Assembly: GCA_029964075.1 (NCBI GenBank) | Contig: CM057149.1 | Span: 13,154,465 to 13,218,464, forward strand | Origin: Patiria pectinifera | Lineage: Eukaryota; Echinodermata; Asteroidea; Valvatida; Asterinidae | DNA length: 64,000 nt | Direction: 5' to 3' | Shown here: positions 4,619 through 48,732 of the stretch, piece after piece | Layout: the number at the start of each line of letters is the position of its first letter | How positions within the stretch are numbered: the first letter of the stretch is position 1 | The notes under the pieces: model-generated | Databases searched by the model: none | The model's input: only the letters and a program-made list of their open reading frames with translations | What the model was told of the DNA's origin: nothing | Translations under genes and position numbers: made by a program

Positions 4619-4685
4619 GTCAGCAGTCCATGTGTACATATACTGCCAAGTGTCTATGGCGTGTCAAACGTTGCAATATTCAATA

Positions 4686-5145
4686 TTTTGCAATATATAT
4701 GTTGGATGTTCAATATGTGTTTGTTATCTTTTACATTTATGTGCGATGTTCAATATAAGTGTGCGATGTTTTTCATTATTTGCGCGATGTTTAATATATT
4801 TGTGCGATGTTTTACAATATATGTGCGATGTTCAATATATGTGTGCGATGTTTTACATTTATATGCGATTTTCAATTTATATGTGGGATATTTTTGACGA
4901 TATATATGTGCGATGTTTTCAATATTATGTTCGATTTTTTGCATTAAATGTGCGATGTTTTTCGATACAAAAGGTGTGTTAGGTGTGTTGTTCTACAATA
5001 TATTTGCGATATTCTCAAATATGTGAGCAATGTTTCACACATATGTTTGACATTTCGAGCTATTTGTATTCGATGTTTCATCGGTATGTTTGCATTCGAT
5101 CTTTTGCAATATGCATTTGATATTTCCCTTTTCATTCGATGTTTC
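4686..5145. repeat. Outer tandem array, left foldback arm
   Basis: A degenerate tandem repeat with a GTGCGATGTT core recurs every 20-21 bp near 4740-4860 and becomes looser inward, to about 5145. It is the outermost domain of the left arm, about 30 bp inside the terminus. Its mirror lies at about 16085-16545. Translations of it are low-complexity artefacts, not genes. Confidence 0.8.
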
Positions 5146-5249
5146 TTTAAGAGTCAAAGTCTGGTTACTAGACCGCGAAAGTCTGACTATTTTGCCTAAA
5201 GTCAGTGTATGAGACGTCAGGGGATCGCGTAAAGTGATTAGAGCCACAC

Positions 5250-5460
5250 CTAAACGGTAAAAACCGGAGTTGTGGGTAATTCTTTAAGCATACGCAATGC
5301 GTTCATCACTGCTTGAGCAGTACCCCCAGCTGTGCCTGTACTACCCATAGTGTTATGTGCATCATCTATGCATTGAGGAGTGCATGACACATGGTCTGAG
5401 CTCCAAGGCCGATGTGCACCTGTCCCGTTTAATGATCCAGTTACCTGATAATTTGTTAGC
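5250..5460 (-). CDS. Conserved open frame in left foldback arm
   Basis: A reading frame of about 70 codons ends at a stop near 5250 and is preserved in both arms (counterpart at 15736-15948). It is Thr/Gly/Ala rich with several Cys and His residues and contains GSTGTAGGTAQAVMN. Only about four residues differ between the arms over the shared stretch. I do not recognise the family. It could be a remnant of a transposase exon or of a captured host gene, or simply an open frame kept by arm homogenisation. No start or splice context could be proved. Confidence 0.3.
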
Positions 5461-5703
5461 ATAAGCTGATGTAAAATTGGGCAAAATTTGATGTTTATGG
5501 GAAAAAAAATCAAATTGGTAGGGGTTAACCTTGCATTTTTTTTTAGCAAAATCGGGGAAAATCAGATGTTTCTGGAAAATTGCAGATTGTATGGGGTTAG
5601 ATGTTTATGAAACATTTCAAATTGTAAGGGGTGAACATTGCATATTTTAGCGAAATTGGGCAAAATCAGATGTTTCCGAAAAATTTCAGATGTAAGGGAT
5701 TAA

Positions 5704-6079
5704 GGCCAAAAAAAAAAAGTCTCCGGTTTCTGGTATGCGCGCGCGTCGCCGTAGCCATGCGCTTCGGCAAAATGAAAAAGTTTTTATTTTCAATGAACGA
5801 TGATGTCTCAAAACCGCCAAACTCACTGGTTTGACTGGAATCCTGCTGCTGCAAAATTTTAACGTGTTTTTAGATGGAGTTATGATCGAGAATAAGCTTT
5901 ATGTGGCCTCTCTGGTCTCCCATATTTTTTGCACTAAGTTTAGTCGGGCACCATTTGCAGTCATCAGCCGACATTTGAAGCAAAAAAAAAAAAACAGGTA
6001 AAAAAAAAAAACAAGCCGCGTCGCCGCACCACTTTTTGGGCAAGCTCCATACCAGAAACCGGAGATATTTTTTTAGGCC
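5704..6079. mobile_element. TAA-flanked (Harbinger-like) MITE in left arm
   Basis: The ends GGCCAAAAAAAAAAAAGTCT and (reversed) GGCCTAAAAAAATATCTCCGG continue into a shared ccggtttctggtatg block, giving terminal repeats of about 30 bp. The target duplication is TAA (5701-5703 and 6080-6082), inside the ~69-bp repeat array. A three-base TWA duplication with GG-C termini fits PIF/Harbinger. The same insertion sits at the mirrored position of the right arm. Confidence 0.7.
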
Positions 6080-6981
6080 TAACCTTGCTTTTTTAGTGAA
6101 ATTTTGCAAAGTTAGATGTTACGAAAAATTTCAAGTTGAAGGGGTTAACCTCGCATTTTTTTTAAAGCAAAAATCTGAAAAAAATCTAATGTTTTTGGAA
6201 AATTGCACATTGTAAGGGGTTAACCTTGCTTTTTGAATAAGATTGGGGAAAATTAGATGTTCATGAAAAAAAATCAAATTGTAAGGGGTTAACCTTGCAT
6301 TTTTTAAAAGCAAATAGGACACAATCAGATGATTCTGGAAAATTGCAGATTGTTAGGGCGTAACCTTGTATTTCTAGCAAAATTGGGCAAAAAGAATGTT
6401 TATGAAAATTTTTTAATTGTATATCTTGTATATTTAGTAAAATTTGACAAAATCTAAAATGGTAAGGGGTTAACCTTGCTTTTTTAGCAAAATTTGGAAC
6501 ATATTTTCAAATTGGGCAAAATCAGATGCTTCTAAAAAATCCAGATGTAAAGTTTCCGCAAAAACAGCTGTTGAAAAAGAGCCCAATGTTGAACTTTACT
6601 GAGTCTGAGGTCTATCGAGGGGACGATCCTTATTTCAACTCCCGGAGATTCGCTGACAGTCTCTATTTTTCTTTTTAAGAAAGTCGAAATAGCTGAAGAG
6701 GGGGTGAGAATGTGCCCAGATACAAAAAGTGGAAACCTACGCGTCTGCCTTTTGAAAATACACAATTGTGGTGTTCATTGTTGCGTAATGATCCGCCTAG
6801 CACACAACTGTTTTGCACATTAGGCTGTGTTATGCACCTTCCTAACAAACCAAACACACTGGGCTCATTATATCGACTTGTTTTTACCCATTAAGGTAAA
6901 GCAAATGGACCCAGTAATCTTCCTGGCGCGTTTGCTCACCTATAAAGACAACTTTTATCAGTTTAAGGAAAATTCTAAGGT

Positions 6982-7060
6982 AACGAAATGGCCGAGTGGT
7001 TACGATTCGTCGTCCACGGTTAGCGGGGTCCCGGGTTCGAATCCCGCTGGTGTCTTTTTT
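6982..7060 (+). ncRNA. tRNA-derived (Ser/Leu-like) segment, left arm
   Basis: A pol III A box (TGGCCGAGTGG, 6989-6999) and B box (GGTTCGAATCC, 7034-7044) stand at normal spacing and are followed by six T residues (7055-7060), a pol III terminator. The A box resembles class II tRNA-Ser/Leu. The stem around the B box mostly pairs, but the 5' acceptor side does not pair with the 3' side, so this is not a working tRNA. It looks like a tRNA-derived or SINE-like promoter captured in the arm. Confidence 0.55.
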
Positions 7061-7104
7061 GGTTTTTAACGTATGAGTTCAATTATTCACTATAAGAGAT
7101 TTAA

Positions 7105-7420
7105 ATATCCGTCGTAAAGTACCAACAGTACCTTAGCTTAATCGGTAAGCACTGCTGCTGGTACTGTCCGCGAGTTCCAGGTTGGCGCCTTCGTATAGGT
7201 TCAGGGCATGTGGTCCACTCGGAGGATCAGGGCTTAGGGGCCGCCCTGTTCCTCCCTTAGCTCTTTGCTTTTACATGGTGCCTGGCCCTCCGGGGTTATA
7301 TGGATGGATAGGGAAGGAAGTGTGTATTGGTCGGGGACGCCGAGACCCCGGAAGAGAACTAAGGGATCGGCTGGGGCATTGTTATGGCTCAGACCGATCC
7401 CTGAAAGCTTGACTAGCACA
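7105..7420. other. GC-rich structured segment, left arm
   Basis: About 315 bp, clearly richer in GC than its surroundings, follow the tRNA-like segment. It starts with a second tRNA-like A box (ttagcttaatcggtaagca, about 7133-7151), but the expected B box is poor. Near the end an 8-bp stem pairs GGGATCGG (7364-7371) with CCGATCCC (7394-7401). The right arm repeats it at 13806-14125. It may be a SINE body or a structured RNA; nothing decides between these. Confidence 0.35.
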
Positions 7421-7854
7421 TAACTTTTTGATTTTTTTTACCCTCTATCTTTTATACTTTGGTTTAGTTTGATATCTACAGCTGATCGGCAGCTGAGGTT
7501 TACGGGTAGTATCAAAATTGAAACAAAGGTGTATGTCATAAATCAATGAATATTTCATAATTGACTATAATCAAAACGGAGTTTCGTTCAATCAATTCGA
7601 CTATCATTATATAATGACGCGTTTGCCAATTTACGTAAGAAACGCCATTAATTATACCGGGAAAGAATAAAGATGTACATTGTAATATAAATATTATTTA
7701 TACATCTTTAAAATAACGTGTCTTTAATTGTGAGCATTCCAAACAATACAGTAATTCGCAATGGTATTAGAATGGTATATGATAGCACGATCAATGCGTC
7801 TCTATTAATTTTAAAAATATATAATTTAGGCCCCTATGTGTGAAATATTCTGTT

Positions 7855-10636
7855 TATGAAACATTTCAAATAGTAAGGGGTGAACCTTGCATTTTTTTTT
7901 TGGAAAATTGGGCAAAATCAGATCTTTCTGGAAAATTTCAGATTGTAAAGGGTTAACCTTGCTTTTGTAGTAAAATTTGGCAAAATAAGATGTGTATGAA
8001 AAATTTCAAATTGTAAGCGGTTAACCTTTCTTTTTTTAGTAAAATTGGGAAAATTTAAATATTTATGAAAAATTTCAAATTGTCAGTGGTTAGCCTTGCA
8101 TTTTTTAGCAAAATAGGGCAAAATCAGGTGTTCATGGAGAATATCAAATTGTAAGGGGTTAACTTTGAATTTTTTAGCAAAATACGGCAAAACCAGGTGT
8201 TAATGAAAAATTTCAGATTGTAAAGGGTTCACCTTGCATTTTTAGCAAAATTGGGAAAAATCAGATTTGTATGAAAAATCAAAAATTGTAAGGGGTTAAC
8301 CTTTGCCAAATTAGGGCAAAATCAGATGTTTCTGGAAAATTGCAGATTGAAAGGGGTTAACCTTGCATTTTAAGCAAAATTTGGCAAAATGAAAAATCTC
8401 AAATTGCCAGATTTGTATGAAAAATCAAAAATTGTAAGGGGTTAACCTTTGCCAAATTAGGGCAAAATCAGATGTTTCTGGAAAATTGCAGATTGAAAGG
8501 GGTTAACCTTGCATTTTTAGCAAAATTTGGCAAAATCAGATCTTTCTGAAAAATTTCAGATGTAAGGAATTAATCTTACTTTTTTCTTTAGTGAAATTTG
8601 GTAAAAAAATAGGTGTTTATGAAAAATTTCAAATAGTACGGGGTTCAGATTGCCTTTTTTTTAGCAAAATAGGGCAAAATCTGGTGTTTATGGAAAATTT
8701 CAAATTGTAAGGGGTTAACCTTGCATTTTAGCAAAATTGGGCAAAATCAGATGTTTCTGGAAAATTTCAGATGTAAGGGATTATCCTTGCTTTTTAAGTG
8801 AAATTTGGCAAAGTAAGATGTTTATGAAAAATCTCATATTGTAAGGGGTGAACCTTGTAGTTTTAGCAAAATTTGGCAAAATCAGATCTTTCTGGAAAAT
8901 TTCAGATTGTAAGGGTTTAACCTTGCTTTTTTAGTGATATTTGGCCAAATAACATGTGAATAAAAAATTTCAAATTGTGAGGGGATAACCTTGCATTTTT
9001 TAGCAAAATAGGGCAAAATCAGGTGTTTATGAAAAATGTCAGATCGTAAGGGGTTCACCTTGCATTTTTAGCAAAATTGGGAAAAATCAGATTTGTATGA
9101 AAAATCAAAAATTGTAAGAGGTTAACCGTTGCCCAATTACGGCAAAATCAGATGTTTCTGGAAAGTTGCAGATTGAAAGGGGTTAACCTTGCATTTTTAG
9201 CAAAACTTGGCAATATCAGATTTTTATGAAACATCTCAAATTGTAAGGGGTGAACCTTGCATTTTTAGCAAAATTGGGAAATATCAGATGTTTCTGGAAA
9301 ATTTCAGATGTAAGGGGGTTAACCTTGCACTTTTTAGCAAAATAGGGCAAAATCAGGTGGTTATGAAAAATGTCAGATTGTAAGGGGTTCACCTTGCATT
9401 TTTAGCAGAATTGGGAAAAATCAGATTTGTTTGAAAAATCCAATATTGTAAGAGGTTAACCTTTGCCAAATTAGGGCAAAATCAGATGTTTCTGGAAAGT
9501 TACAGATTAAAAGGCGGTTACCCTTGCATTTTTAGCAAAACTGGGCACTATCAGATTTTTATGAAAAATCTCAAATTGTAAGGGGTGAACCTTACATTTT
9601 TTAGCAAAATTGGGCAAAATCAGCTTTGTATGAAAAATCAAAAATTGTAAGGGGTTAACCTTTGCCAATTTAGGGCACTTAAAAAGCAAGGTTAACCCCC
9701 TTACATCTGAAATTTTCAGATATAAGGGGGGTTAACCTTGCTTTTTTTTAGTAAAATTGGGCAAATTTTAATGTGCATGAAAAATTTGAAACTGTTAGCG
9801 GTTAACCTTGCATTTTTTAGCAAAATACGGCAAAACCAGGTGTTAATGAAAAATTTCAGATTGTAAAGGGTTCACCCTGCATTTTTAGCAAAATTGGGAA
9901 AAATCAGATTTGTATGAAAAATCAAAAATTGTAAGGGGTTAACCTTTGCCAAATTAGGGCAAAATCAGATGTTTCTGAAAAATTGCAAATTGAAAGGGGT
10001 TAACCTTGCATTTTAAGCAAAATTGGGCAAAATGAGATTTTTATGAAAAATCTCAAATTGTAAGGGGTGAACCTTGCATATATTAGCAAAATTGGGCAAA
10101 ATCAGATGTTTCTGAAAAAAATTCCGATGCAAGGAATTAACCTTACTTTTTTTAAGTGAAATTTGGTAAATTAAGATGTTTATGAAAATTTTCAAATTGT
10201 AAGGGGTTCAGTTTGCATTTTTTAAGCGAAATTGGGAAAAAAATCTGATTTTTCTGGAAAATTGCAGAATGTAAGGGGTTAACCTTGCTTTTGGAATAAG
10301 ATTGGGAAAAATTAGATGTTCATGAAAAAAATTCAAATTGTAAGGGGTTAACCTTGCATATTTTTGGCAAAATAGGACACAATCAGATGATTCTGGAAAA
10401 TTGCAGATTGTTAGGGCTTAACCTTGTATTTCTAGCAAAATTGGGCAAAAAGAAATATTTATGAAAATTTTTTAATTGTTTATCTTGTATATTTAGTAAA
10501 ATTTGACAAAATCTTAAATGGTAAGAAATGTTTATGAAAAATATGCAAAATCAGATTTGTATGAAAAATCTAAAATGGTAAGGGGTTAACCTTGCTTTTT
10601 TAGCAAAATTTGGAACATATTTTACTAAAATTGGGC
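7855..10636 (+). repeat. ~69-bp minisatellite, plus-oriented core array
   Basis: A degenerate unit of about 66-70 bp is repeated roughly 40 times. The consensus contains ggggttaaccttgc, then ttagcaaaattgggcaaaat, then cagatgtttctggaaaat. The unit holds the palindrome GGTTAACC. The same unit fills 5490-5700 and 6080-6520 in the left arm. At about 9677-9746 the orientation flips locally and makes a tight hairpin. There is no coding capacity. Confidence 0.85.
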
Positions 10637-11048
10637 AAATCAGATGCTTCTAAAAAATCCAGATGTAAAGTTTCCGCAAAAACAGCTGTTGAAAAAGAGC
10701 CCAATGTTGAACTTTACTGAGTCTGAGGTCTATCGAGGGGACGATCCTTATTTCAACTCCCGGAGATTCGCTGACAGTCTCTATTTTTCTTTTTAAGAAA
10801 GTCGAAATAGCTGAAGAGGGGGTGAGAATGTGCCCAGATACAAAAAGTGGAAACCTACGCGTCTGCCTTTTGAAAATACACAATTGTGGTGTTCATTGTT
10901 GCGTAATGATCCGCCTAGCACACAACTGTTTTGCACATTAGGCTGTGTTATGCAGCTTCCTAACAAACCAAACGCACTGGGTTCATTATATCGACTTGTT
11001 TTTACCCATTGAGGTACAGCAAATGGACCCAGTAATCTTCCTGGCGCG
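10637..11048 (+). repeat. Second copy of the 6519-6930 arm segment
   Basis: This stretch repeats 6519-6930 in the same orientation at an offset of 4,118 bp, with only a few differences, and then returns to ~69-bp repeats. It has no mirrored partner in the right half of the core, so the element is not a simple palindrome. It probably arose by unequal exchange within the left half. Confidence 0.8.
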
Positions 11049-11214
11049 GTGTACCTTGTTTATTTAGTAAAATTTGGCAAAATCAGATTTGTATGAAAAA
11101 TCTAAAATGGTAAGGGGTTAACCTTGCTTTTTTAGCAAAATTTGGAACATATTTTACTAAAATTGGGCAGAATAAGATGCTTCTATAAATCCAGATGTAA
11201 ATTTTCCGCTAAAA

Positions 11215-13240
11215 ATACAAGGTTCACCCCTTACAATTTGAGATTTTTCATATGAATCTGATATTCCCCAGTTATGCTAAAAATGCCAAGTTAACCCCTT
11301 ACATCTGATTTTTCCCAATTTCGCTTAAAAAAGCAAGGTTAACCCCTTTCAATCTGCAATTTTCCAGAAACATCTGATTTTGCCCTAATTACAATTTTTG
11401 ATTGTCAATACAAATCTGATTTAGCCCAATTTTGCTAAAACTGCAAAGTTAACCCCTTACAATCTGAAATTTTCCATAAACACCTGATTTTGCCCTATTT
11501 TGCTAAAAATGCAAGGTTAACCACTGACAATTTGAAATTTTTCATAAACATTTAAATTTTCCCAATTTTACTAAAAAAGCAAGGTTAACACCTTACAATT
11601 TGAAATTTTCCACAAACATCTGATTTTGCCCTATTTTGCTAAAAAAAAAATGCAATCTGAACCCCTTACAATTTGAAATTTTCCATAAACATCTAATTTT
11701 TACCAAATTTCATTAAAAAAAAAGGTAAGGTTAATTCCTTACATCGGAATTTTTTTCAGAAACATCTGATTTTGCCCAATTTTGCTTAAAATGCAAGGTT
11801 AACCCCTTTCAATCTGCAATTTTCAAGAAACATCTGATTTTGCCCTAATTTGGCAAAGGTTAAACCCTTACAATTTTTGCTAAAAATGCAAGGTGAACCC
11901 TTTACAATTTGAAATTTTCAGATGTAAGGGGGTTAACCTTGCTTTTATAGTGCCCTAATTGGCAAAGGTTAAACCCCTTATACTTTGAAATTTCTCATAC
12001 AAATCTGATTTTTCCCAATTTCGCTAAAAAAGCAAGGTTAACCCCCTTACATCTGAAATTTTTCAGAAACATCTGATTTTGCCCAATTTTGCTAAAAATG
12101 CAAGGTTCACCCCTTACAATTTGAGATTTTTCATAAAAATCTGATATTGCAGAGTTTTGCTAAAAATGCAAGGTTAACCCCTTTCAATCTGCAATTTTCC
12201 AGAAACATCTGATTTTGCCCTAATTGGGCAAAGGTTAACCTCTTACAATTTTTGATTTTTCATACAAATCTGATTTTTCCCAATTTTGCTAAAAATGCAA
12301 GGCGAACCCCTTACAATCTGACATTTTTCATAAACACCTGATTTTGCCCTATTTTGCTAAAAAATGCAAGGTTAACCGCTAACAATTTCAAATTTTTCAT
12401 AAACATTTAAATTTGTCCAATTTTACTAAAAAAGCAAGGTTAACCCCTTACAATTTGAAATTTTTCATTCACATCTTATTTTGCCAAATATCACTAAAAA
12501 AGCAAGGTTAACCCCTTACAATCTGAAATTTTCCAGAAAGATCTGATTTTGCCCAATTTCGCTAAAAATACAAGGTTCACCCCTTACAATTTGAGATTTT
12601 TCATATAAATCTGATATTGCCCAGTTATGCTAAAAATGACAAGTTAACCCCTTACAATCTGCAATTTTCAAGAAACATCTGATTTTTCCCAATTTCGCTT
12701 AAAAAAGCAAGGTTAACCCCTTTCAATCTGCAATTTTCCAGAAACATCTGATTTTGCCCTAATTTGGCAAGGTTAACCCCTTACAATTTTTGATTTTTCA
12801 TACAAATCTGATTTTGTTAAAAATGCAAAGTAAACCCCTTACCGTCTGAAATTTTCCATAAACACCTGATTTTGCCCTATTTTGCTAAAAATTGCAAGGT
12901 TAACCACTGACAATTTGAAATTTTTCGTAAACATTTAAATTTTCCCAATTTTACTAAAAAAGGAAGGTTAACCCCTTACACTTTGAAATATTTCATACAC
13001 ATCTTATTTTGCCAAATTTTACTACAAAAGCAAGGTTAACCCCTTACAATCTGTAATTTTCCAGAAAGATCTGATTTTTCCCAATTTCGCTAAAAAATGC
13101 AAGGTTCACCCCTTACAATTTGAAATGTTTTATAAACATCTAAATTTTACTAAAAATGTAAGGTTAACCCCTTACAAGCTGCAATTTTCCAGAAACATCT
13201 GATTTTTCCTAATTTTGCTAAAATGTAAGGTTAACTAACA
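11215..13240 (-). repeat. ~69-bp minisatellite, minus-oriented core array
   Basis: The same ~69-bp unit in reverse-complement orientation, roughly 30 copies. The switch from plus to minus orientation falls near 11,200, close to the geometric centre of the foldback. A short local flip back to plus orientation occurs near 11925-11950. The 13240-13397 stretch that follows is unique to this side. Confidence 0.85.
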
Positions 13241-14183
13241 ATCAATACATGAAGTGTCCAATTTGACTTTTTTAAAACAAATTTTTTCCCCAGTTTTTAG
13301 GGTAAAGGAATTTTCTCTTTTTCCTTTCTCTTTTGTTGTTGCTATATTTTGCGAATTAACTCATTCGTATGGAATGCTCATAGTCAATCAAAGAACATTT
13401 CACACATAGGCGCCTAAATTATATATTTTTTTGAATTTAATAGAGACGCATTGATCGTGCTATCATATACCATTCTATTACTATTGCGAATTACTGTATT
13501 GTTTGGAATGCTCACAATTAAAGACACGTTATTTGAAAGATGTATAAATATATTTATATTACAATGTACATCTTTATTCTTTCCCGGTATAATTTATGGC
13601 TTTTCTTACGTCAATTGGCAATCGCGTCATTATATAATGATAGTCAAATTGATTGAACGAAACTCCGTTTTGATTATAGTCAATTATGAATTATTCATTG
13701 ATTTATAACATACACCTTTGTTTCAATTTTGATACTACCCGTAAACCTGCCGAGCAGCTGTAGATATCAAACTAAACCAAAGTATAAAAGATAGAGGGTG
13801 AAAAAAAATCAAAAAGTTATGTGCTAGTCAAGCTTTCAGGGATCGGTCTGAGCCATAACAATGCCCCAGCCGATCCCTTAGTTCTCTTCCGGGGTCTCGG
13901 CGTCCCCGACCAATACACACTTCCTTCCCTATCCATCCATATAACCCCGGAGGGCCAGGCACCATGTAAAAGCAAAGAGCTAAGGGAGGAACAGGGCGGC
14001 CCCTAAGCCCTGATCCTCCGAGTGGACCACATGCCCTGAACCTGTACGAAGGCGCCAACCTGGAACTCGCGGACAGTACCAGCAGCAGTGCTTACCGATT
14101 AAGCTAAGGTACTGTTGGTACTTTACGACGGGAAATTAAATCTCTTATAGTGAATAATTGAACTCATACGTTAAAACCCAAAA

Positions 14184-14261
14184 AGACACCAGCGGGATTC
14201 GAACCCGGGACCCCTCTATCCGTGGACGACGAATCGTAACCACTCGGCCATTTCGTTACCT
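14184..14261 (-). ncRNA. tRNA-derived segment, right arm
   Basis: Reverse-complement counterpart of the left-arm tRNA-like segment, with the same A and B boxes and two to three differences between them. The terminator is five T residues on this strand. The two copies would transcribe convergently toward the element core if pol III recognised them. Confidence 0.5.
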
Positions 14262-15121
14262 TAGAATTTTCCTTAAACTGATAAAAGTTGTCTTTATAGG
14301 TGAGCAAACGCGCCAGGAAGATTACTGGGTCCATTTGCTGTACCTCAATGGGTAAAAACAAGTCGATATAATGAACCCAGTGTGTTTGGTTTGTTAAGAA
14401 GCTGCATAACACAGCCTAATGTGCAAAACAGTTGTGTGCTAGGCGGATCATTACGCAACAATGAACACCGCAATTGTGTATTTTCAAAAGGCAGACGCGT
14501 AGGTTTCCACTTTTTGTATCTGGGCACATTCTCACCTCCCTCTTCAGCTATTTCGACTTTCTTAAAAAGAAAAATAGAGACTGTCAGCGAATCTCCGGGA
14601 GTTGAAATAAGGATCGTCCCCTCGATAGACCTCAGACTCAGTAAAGTTCAACATTGGGCTCTTTTTCAACAGCTGTTTTTGCGGAAACTTTACATCTGGA
14701 TTTTTTAGAAGCATCTGATTTTGCCCAATTTGAAAATATGTTCCAAATTTTGCTAAAAAAGCAAGGTTAACCCCTTACCATTTTAGATTTTGTCAAATTT
14801 TACTAAATATACAAGATATACAATTAAAAAATTTTGATAAACATTTCTTTTTGCCCAATTTTGCTAGAAATACAAGGTTAAGCCCTAACAATCTGCAATT
14901 TTCCAGAATCATCTGATTGTGTCCTATTTTGCTTTTAAAAAATGCAAGGTTAACCCCTTACAATTTGATTTTTTTTCATGAACATCTAATTTTCCCCAAT
15001 CTTATTCAACATTAGATTTTTTTCAGATTTTTGCTTTAAAAAAATGCGAGGTTAACCTCTTTCAATTTGAAATTTTTTGTAACATCTAACTTTGCAAAAT
15101 TTTACTAAAAAAGCAAGGTTA

Positions 15122-15493
15122 GGCCAAAAAAAAGTCTCCGGTTTCTGGTATGGAGCTTGCCCAAAAAGTGGTGCGGCGACGCGGCTTGTTTTTTTTTTCT
15201 ACCTGTTTTTTTTTTTGGCTTCAAATGTCGGCTGATGACTGCAAATGGTGCCCGACTAAACTTGTGCAAATATTATGGGAGACCAGAGAGGCCACATAAA
15301 GCTTATTCTCGATCATAACCCCATCTAAAAGCACGTTAAAATTTTGCAGCAGCAGGATTCCAGTCAAACCAGTGAGTTTGGCGGTTTTGAGACATCATCG
15401 TTCATTGAAAATAAAAACGTTTTCATTTTGCCGACGCGCATGGCTACGGCGACGCGCGCGCATACAAGAAACCGGAGACTTTTTTTTTTGGCC
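15122..15493. mobile_element. TAA-flanked (Harbinger-like) MITE in right arm
   Basis: Mirror-image copy of the MITE of the left arm, flanked by TTA (15119-15121 and 15494-15496), which is TAA on the other strand. Both arms carry the same nested insertion at the same site. One insertion was therefore copied to the second arm, either when the arms formed or later by gene conversion. Confidence 0.7.
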
Positions 15494-15735
15494 TTAATCC
15501 CTTAAATCTGGAATTTTTCGGAAACATCTGATTTTGCCCAATTTCGCTAAAATATGCAATGTTCACCCCTTACAATTTGAAATGTTTCATAAACATCTAA
15601 CCCCATACAATCTGCAATTTTCCAGAAACATCTGATTTTTCCCGATTTTGCAAAAAAAAAATGCAAGGTTAACTCCTACCAATTTGATTTTTTTTCCCCA
15701 TAAACATCAAATTTTGCCCAATTTTACATCAGCTT

Positions 15736-15948
15736 ATGCTAACAAATTATCAGGTAACTGGATCATTAAACGGGACAGGTGCACATCGGCCTTGGAGCTC
15801 AGACCATGTGTCATGCACTCCTCAATGCATGGATGATGCACATAACACTATGGGTAGTACAGGCACAGCTGGGTGTACTGCCCAAACAATGATGAACGCA
15901 TTGCGTATGCTTAAAGAATTACCCACAACTCCGGTTTTTACCGTTTAG
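15736..15948 (+). CDS. Conserved open frame in right foldback arm
   Basis: Right-arm counterpart of the open frame at 5250-5460, 70 codons from ATG to stop, reading outward toward the element end. It has GSTGTAGCTAQTMMN where the left arm has GSTGTAGGTAQAVMN. The frame lies between the inner ~69-bp repeats and the outer 20-21-bp array. No family was recognised. Preservation of the frame could reflect function or only recent copying between the arms. Confidence 0.3.
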   Translation: MLTNYQVTGSLNGTGAHRPWSSDHVSCTPQCMDDAHNTMGSTGTAGCTAQTMMNALRMLKELPTTPVFTV

Positions 15949-16084
15949 GTGTGGCTCTAATCACTTTACGCGATCCCCTGACGTCTCATACACTGACTTT
16001 AGGCAAAATAGTCAGACTTTCGCGGTCTAGTAACCAGACTTTGACTCTTAAAGAAACATCGAATGAAAAGGGAAATATCAAATG

Positions 16085-16545
16085 CATATTGCAAAAGATC
16101 GAATGCAAACATACCGATGAAACATCGAATACAAATAGCTCGAAATGTCAAACATATGTGTGAAACATTGCTCACATATTTGAGAATATCGCAAATATAT
16201 TGTAGAACAACACACACAATTGTATCAAAAAACATCGCACATTTAATGCAAAAAATCGAACATAAATTGAAAACATCGCACAAATATATATCGTCAAAAA
16301 CATCGCACATATAAATTGAAAATCGCATATAAATGTAAAACATCGCACACATATATTGAACATCGCACATATATTGTAAAACATCGCACAAATATATTAA
16401 ACATCGTGCAAATAATGAAAAACATCGCACACTTATATTGAACATCGCACATATATGAAAAACATCGCACACTTATATTGAACATCGCACATAAATGTAA
16501 AAGATAACAAACACATATTGAACATCCAACATATACATTGCAAAA
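16085..16545. repeat. Outer tandem array, right foldback arm
   Basis: Reverse-complement counterpart of the outer array of the left arm, with repeated AACATCGCAC units spaced about 20-21 bp. The copy pattern differs slightly from the left arm: an extra unit near 16420-16480 suggests copy-number change by slippage or unequal exchange. Confidence 0.8.
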
Positions 16546-16583
16546 TATTGAATATTGCAACGTTTGACACGCCATAAGTGTCC

Positions 16584-18583: not shown

Positions 18584-19790
18584 TTAAGAGGCCTTTTCTA
18601 CTAAATGTCTCAAACAGTTCCAAGTACACGGTATAAATAGGCCTATTCTTTTGTTGTTGGAGGCTATTTTTCTGTGAAAAGCATTTTCAACAAACTTCAT
18701 ACCAACGAATAGTTTCTCATCAGTGTGGACCTTTAATATAGTTGAAGGTTGAATTTCCATGAGAAGCTTTTGCCACAAATAACACAAACAAACGGTTTTT
18801 TGCTAATCTGGATTACCTTATGTCGTCGTATTCACTGCTAATAGAGAAGCCTTTGACATAGATGTCACAAACAAAAGGCTTTACTTCATTACGGATCTTC
18901 TGATGTTCTTGCAAACTACATGTACCTTCATGCAAGATTTGCCACAAGTCTGTGGCATTTGCCACAAGCGTCACAAATAGTTTCTCATTAGTGTGACCCA
19001 TTTTATGTTGTTGTAGGTCATTCGTGTTTTAAACGCCAGTACCACAAACAGTTTCGCATTGATGTGGATATTCTAGTGTTGCTGGCTACCAATACGAGAG
19101 AAGCATCTGCGACAAAAGTCACAAGCAAATGGTTTGTCATTTAGTGTGGACACTGTGATGTCGCTGAAGAACACTTTTCTGAGAGAATGCTTTGCCACCA
19201 AAAACACAAACAAATGTTTATTCCTAAACTCAAAGGTGGATCGTCTTGTGTCGCCGTAGGTTGCTATACTGCTCGATAAAAAGCATTTGCCACAGATGTC
19301 ACATACCAATTGTTCTTCGTTGGTGTGGATCCTCTGGCGTCGCCTGATGCTGCTATTGCTTGAGAAGCCTTTGCCACCGTAAATGTCACAAGCAAAATGG
19401 TTTCTCATTGGTGTGGACAGTCTGGTGTTGTCGTTGGCTGCTACTATTTTAGAAGCCTTTGCCACAAAAGTCAAATGCAAATAATTTCCTGTTTGTGTGG
19501 ATCCTCTTGGGTCGCCGTAGTTGGCTACTTGTTGAAAAGCCTTTGCCACGTGTTAGAATCAAATGGTTGATCATTGGTGTGCATACTCTAGGTTGCTACT
19601 GCCTGAAAAGCTTGTTATAAATGTTAGAAGCAAAAGGTTTGCCATTGGGGCGGTCCTGCCTGGGTCGCCGTAGGCGGCTACTGGTTGAGAGGCCTTTGCC
19701 ACAAAGTCACAAACCAATTTTTTTTTATTTGTGTGAACTCTCTGACGCTGTTGAGGTTTAAGCTTCGTTAAGAAGGCTTTATCACACATG
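18584..19790 (-). pseudogene. Decayed C2H2 zinc-finger units
   Basis: The sequence is recognisably made of 84-bp C2H2 units (tttgccacaaa-tgtcacaa-gcaaa blocks on the plus strand), but the frame changes at almost every unit and cysteine/histidine pairs are lost. It continues the zinc-finger array that is intact upstream and marks its degenerated 3' side. Only short in-frame pieces remain, so no protein can be read through it. Confidence 0.75.
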
Positions 19791-20209
19791 TCTTAACATA
19801 TGGTTTCTCATTGGTGTGGACCTCATGATGTTGCCGAAGAGTACCTTTTTGAGAAAAGCCTTTGCCACAAATGTCACAAACAAACGGTTTCTCATCAGCG
19901 TGAACTCTCTGATGTCGTTGACAGTTGACTTTCTGAGAAAAGCCTTTGCCACACATGTCACAAGCAAATGGTTTATCATTGGTGTGGATACTCTGGTGTC
20001 GTCGTAAGTTGCTACTTTTTGAGAAGCCTTTGCCACAAATGTCACAAGCAAATGGTTTATCATTGGTGTGCATACTCTGGTGTTGTCGTAGGTGGCTACT
20101 TCTTGAGAAGCCTTTGCCACAAATGTCACAAGCAAATGGTTTCTCATTGGTGTGGATACTCTGGTGGTGTTGTAAGTTGCTACTTTTTGAGAAGCCTTTG
20201 CCACAAATG
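19791..20209 (-). pseudogene. Five intact fingers beyond a frameshift
   Basis: Five well-formed C2H2 fingers (recognition positions KSSNLQH, RSSHLRQ, KSSNLRR, QKVNCQR and QKGTLRQ) lie in a frame different from the upstream array. The break is a 13-bp tandem duplication (tgtcacaagcaaa) at about 20209-20234. Without it the array would run on by five fingers. The last finger is followed by a degenerate NEKPYV linker and a stop. Confidence 0.75.
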
Positions 20210-21853
20210 TCACAAGCAAATGTCACAAGCAAATGGTTTCTCATTGTCGTGGATACTCTGGTGTTGTTGTAGGTTGCTACTTTTTGAGAAGCCTTTGCCA
20301 CAAAAGTCACAAACAAATGTTTTTATATTTGTGTGAGCTCTCTGATGCTGTTGAAGTTTAACCTGCGTTGAGAAGCTTTTGCCACAAATGTCACAAGCAA
20401 ATGGCTTATCATTGGTGTGCATACTCTGGTGTTGTCGTAGGTTGCTACTCCTTGAGAAGAATTTGCCACAAATGTCACAAGCAAATGGTTTCTCATTGGT
20501 GTGGATCCTCTTGTGTCGCCTGAGGCTGCTAGTATAAGAGAAGCCTTTGCCACAAATGTCACAAGCAAACGGTTTCTCATTGGTGTGGGTTCTCTGGTGT
20601 TGTCGTACGTTGCTTCTTCTTGAGAAGAATTTGCCACAAATGTCACAAGCAAACGGTTTGTCATTGGTGTGCATACTCTGGTGTTGTCGTACGTTGCTAG
20701 TGCATGAGAAGCCTTTGCCACAAATGTCACAAGCAAATGGTTTATCATTGGTGTGTATACTCTGGTGTTGTCGTACGCTGCTTCTTCTTGAGAAGAATTT
20801 GCCACAAATGTCACAAGCAAACGGTTTGTCATTGGTGTGCATACTCTGGTGTTGTCGTACGTTGCTAGTGCTTGAGAAGCCTTTGCCACAAAAGTCACAT
20901 ACAAATGTTTTTATATTTGTGTGAACTCTCTGATGCTGTTGAAGTTTAACCTCCGTTGATAAGCCTTTGCCACAAATGTCACGAGCAAATGGCTTATCAT
21001 TGGTGTGCATACTCTGGTGTTGTCGTAGGTTGCTTCTTCTTGAGAAGCCTTTGCCACAAATGTCACAAGCAAATGGTTTCTCATTGGTGTGGATCCTCTT
21101 GTGTCGCCTGAGGCTGCTAGTATAAGAGAAGCCTTTGCCACAAATGTCACAAGCAAACGGTTTCTCATTGGTGTGGGTTCTCTGGTGTTGTCGTAGGTTG
21201 CTACTTTTTGAGAAGCCTTTGCCACAGATGTCACAAGCAAATGGTTTATCATTGGTGTGCATACTCTGGTGTTGTCGTAGGTTGCTACTTTTTGAGAAGC
21301 CTTTGCCACAGATGTCACAAGCAAATGGTTTATCATTGGTGTGTATACTCTGGTGTTGTCGTACGTAGCTTCTTCTTGAGAAGAATATGCCACAAATGTC
21401 ACAAGCAAACGGTTTGTCATTGGTGTGCATACTCTGGTGTTGTCGTACGTTGCTAGTGCATGAGAAGCCTTTGCCACAAAAGTCGCAAACAAATGTTTTT
21501 ATATTTGAGTGAACTCTCTGATGCTGTTGAAGTTTAACCTCCGTTGAGAAACCTTTGCCACAAATGTCACAAGCAAATGGCTTATCATTGGTGTGCATAC
21601 TCTGGTGTTGTCGTAGGTTGCTTCTTCTTGAGAAGCCTTTGCCACAAATGTCACAAGCAAATGGTTTCTCATTGGTGTGAACGCTGTGGTGTCGTTGAAG
21701 GTTACCTTTCTCAGAAAAGCCTTTGCCACACATGTCACAAGCATATGGCTTCTCATTGGTGTGGACCCTGTAATGTCTTTGTAGGCTGTTTTTGTTCGAG
21801 ACGCCTTTACCACAAACATGGCAAACAAATGATTGCTTTGTTGTGTGGACCAT
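20210..21853 (-). CDS. C2H2 zinc-finger array protein, frameshifted
   Basis: A 547-codon frame encodes 19 consecutive C2H2 fingers of 28 residues plus the start of a twentieth. The fingers follow CxxCGKGFSxxxxLxxHxxxH, with linkers TNEKP, TNDKP or TNIKT instead of the usual TGEKP. Proteins of this type bind DNA in the nucleus; no KRAB, BTB, SCAN or PRDM-like domain is seen. Finger 11 has lost a zinc ligand (Cys to Arg). Fingers 3-9 and 10-16 form a seven-finger block repeated in the same order, and 17-18 begin a third. The frame ends just after a 13-bp duplication. The chosen ATG precedes a VHT linker; finger-like sequence continues upstream without ATG toward a stop. The 3' side is decayed, so the gene may be dying or already a pseudogene. 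Confidence 0.7.
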   Translation of the reverse strand: MVHTTKQSFVCHVCGKGVSNKNSLQRHYRVHTNEKPYACDMCGKGFSEKGNLQRHHSVHTNEKPFACDICGKGFSRRSNLRQHQSMHTNDKPFACDICGKGFSTEVKLQQHQRVHSNIKTFVCDFCGKGFSCTSNVRQHQSMHTNDKPFACDICGIFFSRRSYVRQHQSIHTNDKPFACDICGKGFSKSSNLRQHQSMHTNDKPFACDICGKGFSKSSNLRQHQRTHTNEKPFACDICGKGFSYTSSLRRHKRIHTNEKPFACDICGKGFSRRSNLRQHQSMHTNDKPFARDICGKGLSTEVKLQQHQRVHTNIKTFVCDFCGKGFSSTSNVRQHQSMHTNDKPFACDICGKFFSRRSSVRQHQSIHTNDKPFACDICGKGFSCTSNVRQHQSMHTNDKPFACDICGKFFSRRSNVRQHQRTHTNEKPFACDICGKGFSYTSSLRRHKRIHTNEKPFACDICGKFFSRSSNLRQHQSMHTNDKPFACDICGKSFSTQVKLQQHQRAHTNIKTFVCDFCGKGFSKSSNLQQHQSIHDNEKPFACDICL

Positions 21854-45545: not shown

Positions 45546-45631
45546 CGCAAAAAAAATATGGCAGCCTTGCACTCACTCAGTAATAACACTATGGTGTACT
45601 ATAAAAGGACACCTATCTGTTATCGTCGTGC

Positions 45632-45893
45632 GTGTGGGGAGCTCCGTCGTGCCTGTGAGCAGGTCCGTCGTGCCTGTGAGCAGGTCCGTCGTGTTTGTGA
45701 GCAGACCGTCGTGCGTGTGGGGAGCTCCGTCGTGCCTGTGAGCAGGTCCGTCGTGTTTGTGAGCAGACCGTCGTGTTTGTGAGCAGACCGTCGTGCGTGT
45801 GAGTAAAACCGTCGTGCCTGTGAGTAAAACCGTCGTGTTTGTGAGTAAAACCATCGTGCGTGTGAGTAAATCCGTCGTGCCTATGAGGCGCCA
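45632..45893. repeat. 21-bp minisatellite, left arm of foldback 2
   Basis: About a dozen copies of a 21-bp unit whose core is CCGTCGTG, alternating between tgcgtg, tgcctg and tgtttg variants. Reading frames across it give Ser/Arg/Val or His/Asp repeats and are artefacts. Confidence 0.85.
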
Positions 45894-45894
45894 T

Positions 45895-46325
45895 GTGTAA
45901 ATAAATTATTTAACAAAATTATTTATATATATAATTCATTATTTATTATATAATTCAGTTTTCCGGACAATTATATGTAAATAATTGATTGGCAGTTTGC
46001 ATTATATGTACATAAATGTATTTGCCACTGCATTATTTATATATATAATTTTTTGCAACCTTATTATTTATATATAATTTAATGCAAACGTATTATTTAT
46101 ATATAATTTATTTGCAAACTTATTATTTATATATAATTTATTTGGTACCTCATTATTTATATATATATATATATATTTTTGCACGCTTTAATCATTTATT
46201 ATATGATTTATTTGGTACCTCATTATTTAAATATAATTTTTGCACACTTTATTTACTTATATATAATGCATTATTTATTATATAATTCATTATTTATTAT
46301 ATAATTCATTATTTATTATATAATG
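45895..46325. repeat. AT-rich inner tandem repeat, left arm of foldback 2
   Basis: Units of about 25-30 bp built on ttatttatatataattt, mirrored at about 47735-48140. The region is almost pure AT and would melt or extrude easily. Confidence 0.75.
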
Positions 46326-46689
46326 CATTATTATATTTTATCACTACAAGATAAAATGCATCATGCGGCACAGACACACTGTTGATCAATCACGTAATTT
46401 TCTTCAATCAGCTGGTTGTTGCCATGGGGTACGTGTGCGCGGTAAACAGTAGGGGCGGCCAGAACACCTGGCCGCCCCACGGACGTGACATATTGAGGCG
46501 AGGGAAATTGTTCATATCGCTAAAATGATATGGATCGCGCGCCCAAAGGGGTAAAAGAAGCAATACCAATACAGTGTATTAAGTCAAGTTCATTAATTAG
46601 GTTAAGTTCGCGCCTCGTGAATTCTTAAATTACGAATCCACACTTGCGAGTGTATTCTTCGACTTAAACCATTGCGTCAACAGAAGTAT

Positions 46690-46886
46690 TGGAAAGAATG
46701 CTGCAACCTGACGCCACTCTTTGCTTCATATATCATCTCAATGAAGGTCATTCGTTGCAAAAATGATAATAATACATGAATCTGGGACTGAGAAATGTTT
46801 CAAATTTTGTTAGGAAATACTTGAAATGACTCTCCTTAGACTTCGTACACAAGCGCGGAAGTGGCGTCAGGTTGCAACATTTGTCC
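46690..46886. mobile_element. MITE with GTTGCAACCTGA ends, inside foldback 2
   Basis: The left end reads gaatgctgcaacctgacgcc and the right end, reversed, aatgttgcaacctgacgcc. It matches 24776-25000 internally. It occupies part of the unique spacer of the foldback element, either as a passenger or as a later insertion. Confidence 0.6.
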
Positions 46887-48141
46887 CTGGCATGTGTATC
46901 GCCACACCCGTACAACCAAGCCATTTTGTGTGTGTAGGCTCCTTACGACAAAATGGATAGTTCAGACGACGATTTCTTTCTGATTTAAAGTAGTTTTTGC
47001 AGTGACGGCGGCGAATGTGACAGTGAAGATGTGAAGATTCTTCGTTCCGAATCCACACTTTGTGACCAGTGTAAGAGATTCGTAGATCCGAATCCACAGT
47101 TTTAACAATAGTGTGACGTCATAGCAATGGTTTAAGCTCAAAGTTCACTTCGGCTTAGCTTCCCACCTCCCTTCGCCTCCAACATTAAGAAATTAATTGC
47201 AGTCCTCAATTCAAAAGAAATAAATAGTTCTTAAGTAAGATTTTGAATTTTGACCAAAAGTTCGTTTTAATCTTTAGAAACACTACCCTCTAGTACTGGT
47301 GGGGCTTATTCCAACCGTATTTTCCAACGGTGGGAAAAATCGGCGTGCCTTTTTCAAGTTTATTCTTAAGAAATTTTGGCATTTTTCAAGTTTATTCTAT
47401 AAATTCAACCGTAAATTAACGTGACAAATTCGACTGTGACTAACACCCATCTGTTCTGATGCTCGTTAGTATCCAACCGTACCCGGGGTTTGTAGCGGTG
47501 AATGTATTACCGGTGAATGATTGGCAAGCGTGCCAAGATTTGGGCCCACTGATGCCAAGCATGGCAAGGATTTGGAGAAACGTACACCCCCCCTTTTTTT
47601 TTTTTCGTGTGCCCAAACAGTTTGGATTAATAAAATCTGCATAAAACAAAATAGAATAGAGGCTCAAAATAACTATGGCAAAAAGTCAAAGTTTTATTTC
47701 GATGTGTTTTGTTGTGAGGTCTGAGAATAATTATTATATAATGCATTATATAATAAATAATGAAAGTGTGCAAAAAAAATATATATCAATAATAAGTTAC
47801 CAAATAAATTATATATAAATAAATAAAAAGCACAAACATTATATATCAATGAAAAAGGTTGCAAATAAATTATAAATAAATAAAAAAGTGTGCAAAAATT
47901 ATATATAAATAATAAGTTTGCAAATAAATTATATATGAATAATTCTAGTTTGCCCAAAATTATATGTAAATAATTAGGTTGCAAAAAAAATTATATCGTT
48001 AAATATTGCAGTGGCAAATACATTTATTTACATATAATGCAAACTGCCAAACAATTATTTACATATAATTGTCCGGAAAACTGAATTAGGCCTATATAAT
48101 AAATAATGAATTATATATAAATAATTTTGTTAAATAATTTA

Positions 48142-48690
48142 TACTCACACGCACGACGGTTTTACTCACAAACACGACGGTTTTACTCACAGGCACGACG
48201 GTTTTACTCACAAACACGACGGTTTTACTCACACGCACGACGGTTTTACTCACAAACACGACGGTTTTACTCACACGCACGACGGTTTTACTCACAAACA
48301 CGACAGTTTTACTCACACGCACGACGGTTTTACTCACAAACACGACAGTTTTACTCACACGCACGACGGTTTTACTCACAAACACGACGGACCTGCTCAC
48401 ACGCACGACGGACTTGCTCACAGGCACGACGGTTTTACTCACACGCACGACGCTCTGCTCACAAACACGACGGACCTGCTCGTACGACGCTCTGCTCACA
48501 AACACGACGGACCTGCTCACAGGCACGACGGTTTTACTCACACGTACGACGCTCTGCTCACACGACGGACCTGCTCACAAGCACGACGGAGCTCCCCACA
48601 CGCACGACGGTCTGCTCACAAACACGACGGACCTGCTCACAGGCACGACGGACCTGCTCACAGGCACGACGGAGCTCCCCACACGCACGA
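48142..48690. repeat. 21-bp minisatellite, right arm of foldback 2
   Basis: Inverted counterpart of the left-arm array, but about twice as long. Near 48150-48370 units strictly alternate acgcacgacgg and aaacacgacgg, a 42-bp higher-order repeat absent from the left arm. Confidence 0.85.
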
Positions 48691-48732
48691 CGATAACAGA
48701 TAGGTGTCCTTTATAGTACACCATATAACACT

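Follow-up and report, generated by a model that had tools for sequence, protein, structure and literature searches.

A giant foldback-shaped transposon family in Patiria pectinifera, probably a non-autonomous branch of IS3EU

Anatomy of the window element

The stretch of DNA analysed here, which we call the window, comprises 64,000 nt of the Patiria pectinifera genome (assembly GCA_029964075.1, 613.5 Mb) at C21:13,154,465-13,218,464 (CM057149.1), and near its start lies an 11,922-bp element, TATGGCGTGTCAAACG...CGTTTGACACGCCATA, with the shape of a foldback transposon. We propose that this structure is very probably one copy of a giant non-autonomous foldback-shaped family of the IS3EU superfamily, mobilised in trans by a DDE transposase of integrase type. 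The parts of the element are listed below in window coordinates, with the basis of each in brackets (TRF, Tandem Repeats Finder).

4649..4654, no strand: left target-site duplication AGTGTC (same 6-mer at 16577-16582)
4655..16576, no strand: whole element, 11,922 bp (terminal inverted repeat TATGGCG..CGCCATA and 6-bp duplication)
4655..4982, + strand: left subterminal ~20/41-bp tandem array, motif TGTGCGATGTT (tandem-repeat rows, motif count)
4983..5509, + strand: module A, left arm (98.9% identity to inverted 15689-16215)
5510..6391, + strand: left-arm stretch of degenerate relatives of the 68-bp unit (TRF rows 5510-5702, 6076-6392)
6392..7850, + strand: module B, left arm (97.9% identity to inverted 13392-14850)
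7851..10479, + strand: left inner array, ~68-bp unit, ~38 copies (mean unit identity 79%)
10480..11254, no strand: centre, including an additional partial module B (the third copy in all) at 10562-11048 (identity to both arm copies)
11255..13235 (about), - strand: right inner array, ~68-bp unit inverted (tandem-repeat rows, anchor matches)
13392..14850, - strand: module B, right arm (identity to left module B)
14862..15688, - strand, bounds approximate: right-arm degenerate repeat stretch (inverted matches I7, I10, I13)
15689..16215, - strand: module A, right arm (identity to left module A)
16216..16576, - strand: right subterminal ~20/40-bp array (tandem-repeat rows, motif count)
16577..16582, no strand: right target-site duplication AGTGTC (same 6-mer at 4649-4654)

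The outer arms (4655-7850 and 13392-16576) are 98.0% identical over 3134 ungapped columns with 113 gap positions, and the partial copy of module B in the centre is 98.8% identical to 6443-6930 and 99.2% identical to inverted 14309-14795. The subterminal motif TGTGCGATGTT occurs with at most 2 mismatches 15 times in 4655-5100, always forward, and 17 times in 16131-16576, always in reverse, so that its orientation is constant relative to the element end at both sides; the background in the 47 kb at 17001-64000 is 6 forward and 8 reverse. The anchor of the 68-bp unit has 59 matches in the window and none in shuffles. Eight stop-to-stop frames of at least 100 residues overlap the element, and Pfam gives no match at E ≤ 0.1 for any of them. 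Much of this had been described in the original prediction, made from the letters of the window: the inverted arms of ~3.2 kb, the core formed by an inverted pair of long arrays, the nested modules and the target duplications outside them all stand, and its bounds (4656-16575) were off by no more than one base at either end.

The family in the genome and its insertion sites

The window structure is a genuine transposon copy and a member of a family of similar giant elements. A genome-wide search with the terminal 37 bp (at most 3 mismatches), of the kind that the original prediction had recommended for finding inverted pairs of the terminus, returned 151 places, 72 forward and 79 reverse, and none for the reversed query used as the control. 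Family loci were drawn from the first 100 places listed, and 105 ends are known in total from two genome searches. Defined as adjacent inward-facing ends no more than 25 kb apart, 31 pairs are found among the places listed, and the duplication check covered 30 of them, leaving out C6:13,894,698-13,913,591. These 30 pairs span 3.9 to 20.9 kb with a median of 11.9 kb; the window element is thus of ordinary size within its family, and the earlier remark that it is very large for a foldback holds in that its arms exceed those given in the available text of the foldback papers.

Exact 6-bp duplications flank 27 of the 30 pairs, two more have one mismatch, and in one (C20:27,216,131-27,231,352) the flanks are mirror images. 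So many separately assembled pairs with matching duplications speak for a real structure rather than an assembly artefact. Subtracting six re-duplicated insertions and the mirror-flanked pair leaves 23 distinct insertions, of which 22 are exact at 6 bp and none at 7 bp, which disposes of the 8-bp duplication AAGTGTCY that had been offered as an alternative. The 22 target sites have a weak palindromic preference, GSC-N-GTTAAC-N-GSC; its symmetry is imposed by pooling both orientations, yet 0/2000 letter shuffles reach its strongest position or its total. The core of this pooled consensus, the hexamer GTTAAC, is also found in the 68-bp unit, an overlap that may be coincidence because the flanking preference differs from the context in the unit. 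In the left flank of the window element, the outer ~115 bp belong to a dispersed repeat. Two of the four 19-21-kb copies, the longest, were examined over ~10 kb each (L081, C14:21.26 Mb; L082, C18:11.65 Mb) as possible carriers of a hidden transposase, which we reject: their extra sequence resembles nested long terminal repeat (LTR) retrotransposons, apparently BEL-like and gypsy-like (labels given by eye from the frames), beside 68-bp arrays.

Superfamily placement and the search for a transposase

IS3EU elements are described as having TA..TA ends and usually 6-bp duplications (PMC10045372), and those of rust fungi as having 6-bp duplications and TAYGG..CCRTA ends (PMC12730594); here and below, papers are cited for the portions of their text that were available. 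The window element, with TATGG..CCATA at 4655 and 16576 and 6-bp duplications, agrees with both descriptions. These two properties, together with a sibling family that has an integrase-type transposase, are the reasons why we consider it best placed as a non-autonomous IS3EU element. The combination of TATGG/TAYGG ends with 6-bp duplications and short subterminal arrays recurs in three families of the genome. A second foldback-shaped element in the window bears the same end signature:

45590..48725, no strand: a further element of this class, 3,136 bp long, with TATGGTGTACTATAAA... ends (tandem-repeat rows, terminal comparison)
45584-45589 and 48726-48731, no strand: its duplication TAACAC (identical 6-mers)

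It has 21-bp outer arrays and ~30-bp inner arrays, both inverted, and its end, TATGGTGTACTATAAA, is found at 108 genome places (at most 3 mismatches), with many pairs 3-5 kb apart and dispersed over the chromosomes. As a side observation, blocks of 84-bp period at 19281-21765 and 29591-31861, near the window elements, look by eye like C2H2 zinc fingers.

The sibling family TAYGGAAGTGTAG, with ends TAYGGAAGTGTAGATAGGACATGG, occupies 212 genome places (control 0), and it is this family that carries a gene. The genome was searched for candidate transposases with the integrase-core profile PF24764, which gave 87 matches and no match in any of 14 control prokaryotes. Sibling ends enclose a PF24764 gene in two pairs, one of which, 6,813 bp on C17, has the exact duplication TTATTC. 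Among 16 short sibling pairs that were read (308-881 bp), seven have exact duplications and nine have none. In the four short copies seen in full, 21-bp arrays, inverted relative to each other, follow the two ends; the copy of 308 bp, the shortest, consists of hardly more than these, and the other three hold other sequence between them. A gene-bearing family and array-ended short derivatives therefore coexist. The 303-residue sibling frame matches PF24764 at 6e-26, with rve, HTH_21 and Clr5 below their curated cut-offs (HTH_21 so in 2 of the 4 frames scanned), and D142, D201 and E242, invariant in all five aligned sibling frames, are taken as the putative catalytic triad. Tandem arrays of 21-43 bp lie near the gene in four of the five PF24764 types read over at least 5 kb.

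The family of the window element thus resembles IS3EU (with GingerRoot) in its 6-bp duplications and TAYGG..CCRTA ends (PMC10045372, PMC12730594) and in the integrase core of its siblings; it differs in being giant (median as above), in kilobase arms that are partly tandem arrays and in that no transposase was found within the family. No described foldback-shaped IS3EU family turned up in the literature searched, with Repbase itself and most subscription papers outside the search, and IS3EU and foldback occurred together only in an oyster satellitome study, in whose available text IS3EU stands as table labels. Both the foldback architecture and IS3EU are known; the giant combination, the zonal clustering and the satellite link set out below appear undescribed within that literature.

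Several candidates for an autonomous partner were tried and rejected. Three of the 16 places returned by a search with the first 15 bp of the window element carry TACGGCGTGTCAAAC, a different dispersed repeat, since homology continues past the presumed end into the flank. The profile rve_3 (PF13683), tried as a transposase probe, gave 100 matches, and all five loci read, of eight returned, looked gypsy-like by eye. A PF24764 gene in three pieces (C18:11.588, C20:14.10 and C1:12.28 Mb) has neither family ends nor similarity to the window element at the two loci read, L100 (C18:11584000-11592000) and L101 (C20:14096500-14104500), whose sequences agree at 98% across more than 5 kb; the loci on C18 and C1 lie within or close to zones that the window family occupies. 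The PF24764 types L104, L125 and L126 have short arrays and, in the stretches read, no end pair with a 6-bp duplication, L125 showing two chance-like end pairs at 10/14 letters. Chromosome C7 (44.9 Mb, ~7% of the genome) holds 38 of the 87 PF24764 matches, yet all 100 listed window-family ends lie elsewhere.

A number of results weigh against placing the family in IS3EU with a PF24764-type mover. No autonomous partner with the window element's own ends was found in these searches: tblastn of five sibling frames against whole copies, namely the window element, L039 and L040, gave no match, and all 87 PF24764 matches lie at least 64 kb from the 105 known family ends (51 of the 151 ends being outside the listing). 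Relatives sharing the first 15 bp of the window element number 16 against 12 in the control, which is near chance. Within the sibling family, the second gene-bearing pair (C15, 7,510 bp) is without an exact duplication, and only 8 of 18 sibling pairs overall have one. The fifth PF24764 type (L100/L101) has no such tandem arrays, and the tally of arrays leaves out six 3.5-kb PF24764 loci (L094-L099). The equation of the PF24764 proteins with the IS3EU of Repbase is our inference, and AlphaFold modelled the sibling transposase poorly (mean predicted local distance difference test score, pLDDT, 55.7). Finally, a search for an empty site gave no match across the joined flanks (40 scored of 1631 candidates).

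Among the alternatives, the one that survives best, with a small chance of being right, is that the mover is another system that makes 6-bp duplications, Polinton/Maverick, Ginger-like or a retroviral-type integrase, and that the TATGG match with IS3EU is convergent. Polinton/Maverick elements have AG..CT ends, and the window element fits them in its 6-bp duplication but not in its TATGG..CCATA ends. Polintons likewise give 6-bp duplications (PMC10045372), and no transposase with exactly the ends of the window element was found; set against this is the combination of ends, duplications and short subterminal arrays that is common to three families in the genome.

Highly improbable is a classic FB/TU or Mutator-type foldback, the class to which the original prediction had assigned the element. 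The general shape matches, with long internally repetitive inverted arms, a variable centre and no recognised gene, and FB of Drosophila and TU of the sea urchin have this general architecture; they are of another lineage, with duplications of 9 bp (FB) and 8 bp (TU). The window element has a duplication of 6 bp rather than 8-10 bp and ends in TATGG..CCATA, a type of terminus that accompanies an integrase gene in a sibling family, so that the FB/TU-like label is apt for the shape, including the long tandem-repeat arms, and fails for the ancestry. Most foldbacks seem to be Mutator elements, among them Tetris with 8-10-bp duplications (PMC4079207), and Galileo belongs to the P superfamily (PMC3573991). 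Galileo of Drosophila resembles the window family in its foldback shape, its internally repetitive long inverted repeats, its chimeric copies and its arms lengthened by tandem repeats and recruited inner sequence, and it differs in its 7-bp flanking sequences, P-type transposase and arms of up to ~1.25 kb (PMC3573991); membership in Galileo/P is at odds with the lack of any exact 7-bp duplication among the distinct insertions. Tetris of Drosophila virilis is alike in that its arm tandem units are also found outside the element, where they are more uniform, and differs in its duplications, its ~220-bp unit and its assignment by its authors to Mutator (PMC4079207). Least credible of all is an immobile structure, that is a satellite block, a palindromic segmental duplication or an assembly artefact: the 68-bp unit does occur as a free array, several copies lie within segmental duplications and the whole is palindromic, but 23 distinct insertions remain after removal of shared flanks, 22 of them with exact 6-bp duplications, and the window copy has no insertion-site flank in common with the other ends compared.

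For the non-autonomous IS3EU element that we favour, we propose that a PF24764-type transposase, supplied in trans, would bind the subterminal ~20-bp arrays, its putative recognition sites at either end, and act on the TATGG..CCATA termini. The transposase would cut at TATGG..CCATA, and joining to a target with a 6-bp stagger would produce the 6-bp duplication. The arms may have grown by gene conversion or template switching, by which inner modules would be drawn into the inverted repeat, and the arrays may change by unequal exchange. Galileo is described as recruiting inner sequence into its inverted repeats (PMC3573991), and by analogy the window arms and the extra module B in the centre would fit a recruitment of this type. 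The simpler idea that the arms of each element are recent copies of one another was rejected: 1.4 kb could be compared at each end of six elements, and the two arms are nearest relatives in just one, the window copy, in alignments that are noisy because modules differ; when only the first 560 bp are compared, 3-4 other ends are closer to the window arms than these arms are to each other. The elements at C6:12.30 Mb and C14:20.45 Mb have the same pair of unlike arms, and arm types therefore travel together or recombine.

Chromosome zones, duplications and a free satellite

The listed copies of the window family cluster in narrow chromosome zones while those of the sibling families disperse. For the window family, the 100 listed ends fall into 64 loci on 14 chromosomes, and 59 of these loci have a neighbour within 2 Mb, against a mean of 23.5 and a maximum of 38 in 2000 random sets (placed on 20 contigs). 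The median distance to the nearest neighbour is 0.21 Mb, compared with 3.17 Mb in the second family (94 of its 100 listed ends, excluding 6 on small contigs, give 53 loci) and 1.53 Mb in the third (58 loci, 100 listed ends), and only 7/53 loci of the second and 14/58 of the third lie within 2 Mb of a locus of the window family. Segmental duplication as the sole cause of the clustering is insufficient because the clustering persists when each insertion is counted once: 14 of the 23 distinct insertions lie within 2 Mb of another, against a random mean of 3.4 and a maximum of 13 (0/5000). The family spans 2.6% of the length of C8 and 2.9% of C21, and wider stretches of C10 (20%) and C14 (22%); C15 is an exception to the clustering, with a span of 45% and p = 0.14. 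Strict confinement is also opposed by the 68-bp unit at C3:13.65 and C5:15.67 Mb, where it runs in both directions, as in the element, without a listed end.

Duplicated flanks are found in one C14 pair (1.49 kb at 99.7%) and, most extensively, at C2:11.75-13.29 Mb (L004, L007, L014, L015, L017, L018), where five ends in both orientations have a common 1.49-kb flank at 97.4-99.7% and a sixth has ~0.66 kb of it at 93-94%. As read from this sequence similarity, the C2 flanks go back to a single insertion whose surroundings were duplicated repeatedly, in direct and inverted orientation. Copies at the same insertion site vary in length, for example 11,966 and 8,012 bp on C1. The mirror-image flanks of the C20 pair mentioned above (L079/L080, C20:27216131-27231352) match over 67 bp at 98.5%, so that an inverted duplication seems to be centred on this element; a C13 copy has a similar sequence at its flank.

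Arrays of the 68-bp unit also exist outside the element. An exact 26-mer of it occurs 442 times forward and 219 times in reverse genome-wide, and among the first 100 places listed, which reach up to C9, clusters in one direction lie outside the listed zones at C2:7.26, C7:29.55, C9:1.08 and C9:1.48 Mb. The array at C9:1.08 Mb (L127, C9:1081900-1087100) has 64 anchors over 4.4 kb and, with the flanks read on both sides, no family ends; its units are 88% identical, against 79-80% in the window element. At C2:7.26 Mb (L128, C2:7256400-7258400), the 2 kb read is all array, without family ends. The free array recalls Tetris (PMC4079207); it may have been seeded by the element or captured by it.

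We tentatively suggest, as a possibility that is well short of probable, that this giant IS3EU foldback family keeps largely to restricted interior zones, perhaps pericentromeric, of those chromosomes on which it occurs, that its long arms serve as breakpoints for segmental and mirror-image duplications, and that its 68-bp arrays gave rise to a free satellite or were drawn from one, such that the transposon builds and reshapes its own niche. The clustering of the family in zones, set against its dispersed siblings, raises the question of targeting or selective survival. The many copies with readable insertion sites open the way to a study of arm growth, array turnover, the satellite link and the role of such elements in inverted duplications, and a giant IS3EU foldback family beside a transposase-bearing sibling would show the foldback shape arising in another superfamily.

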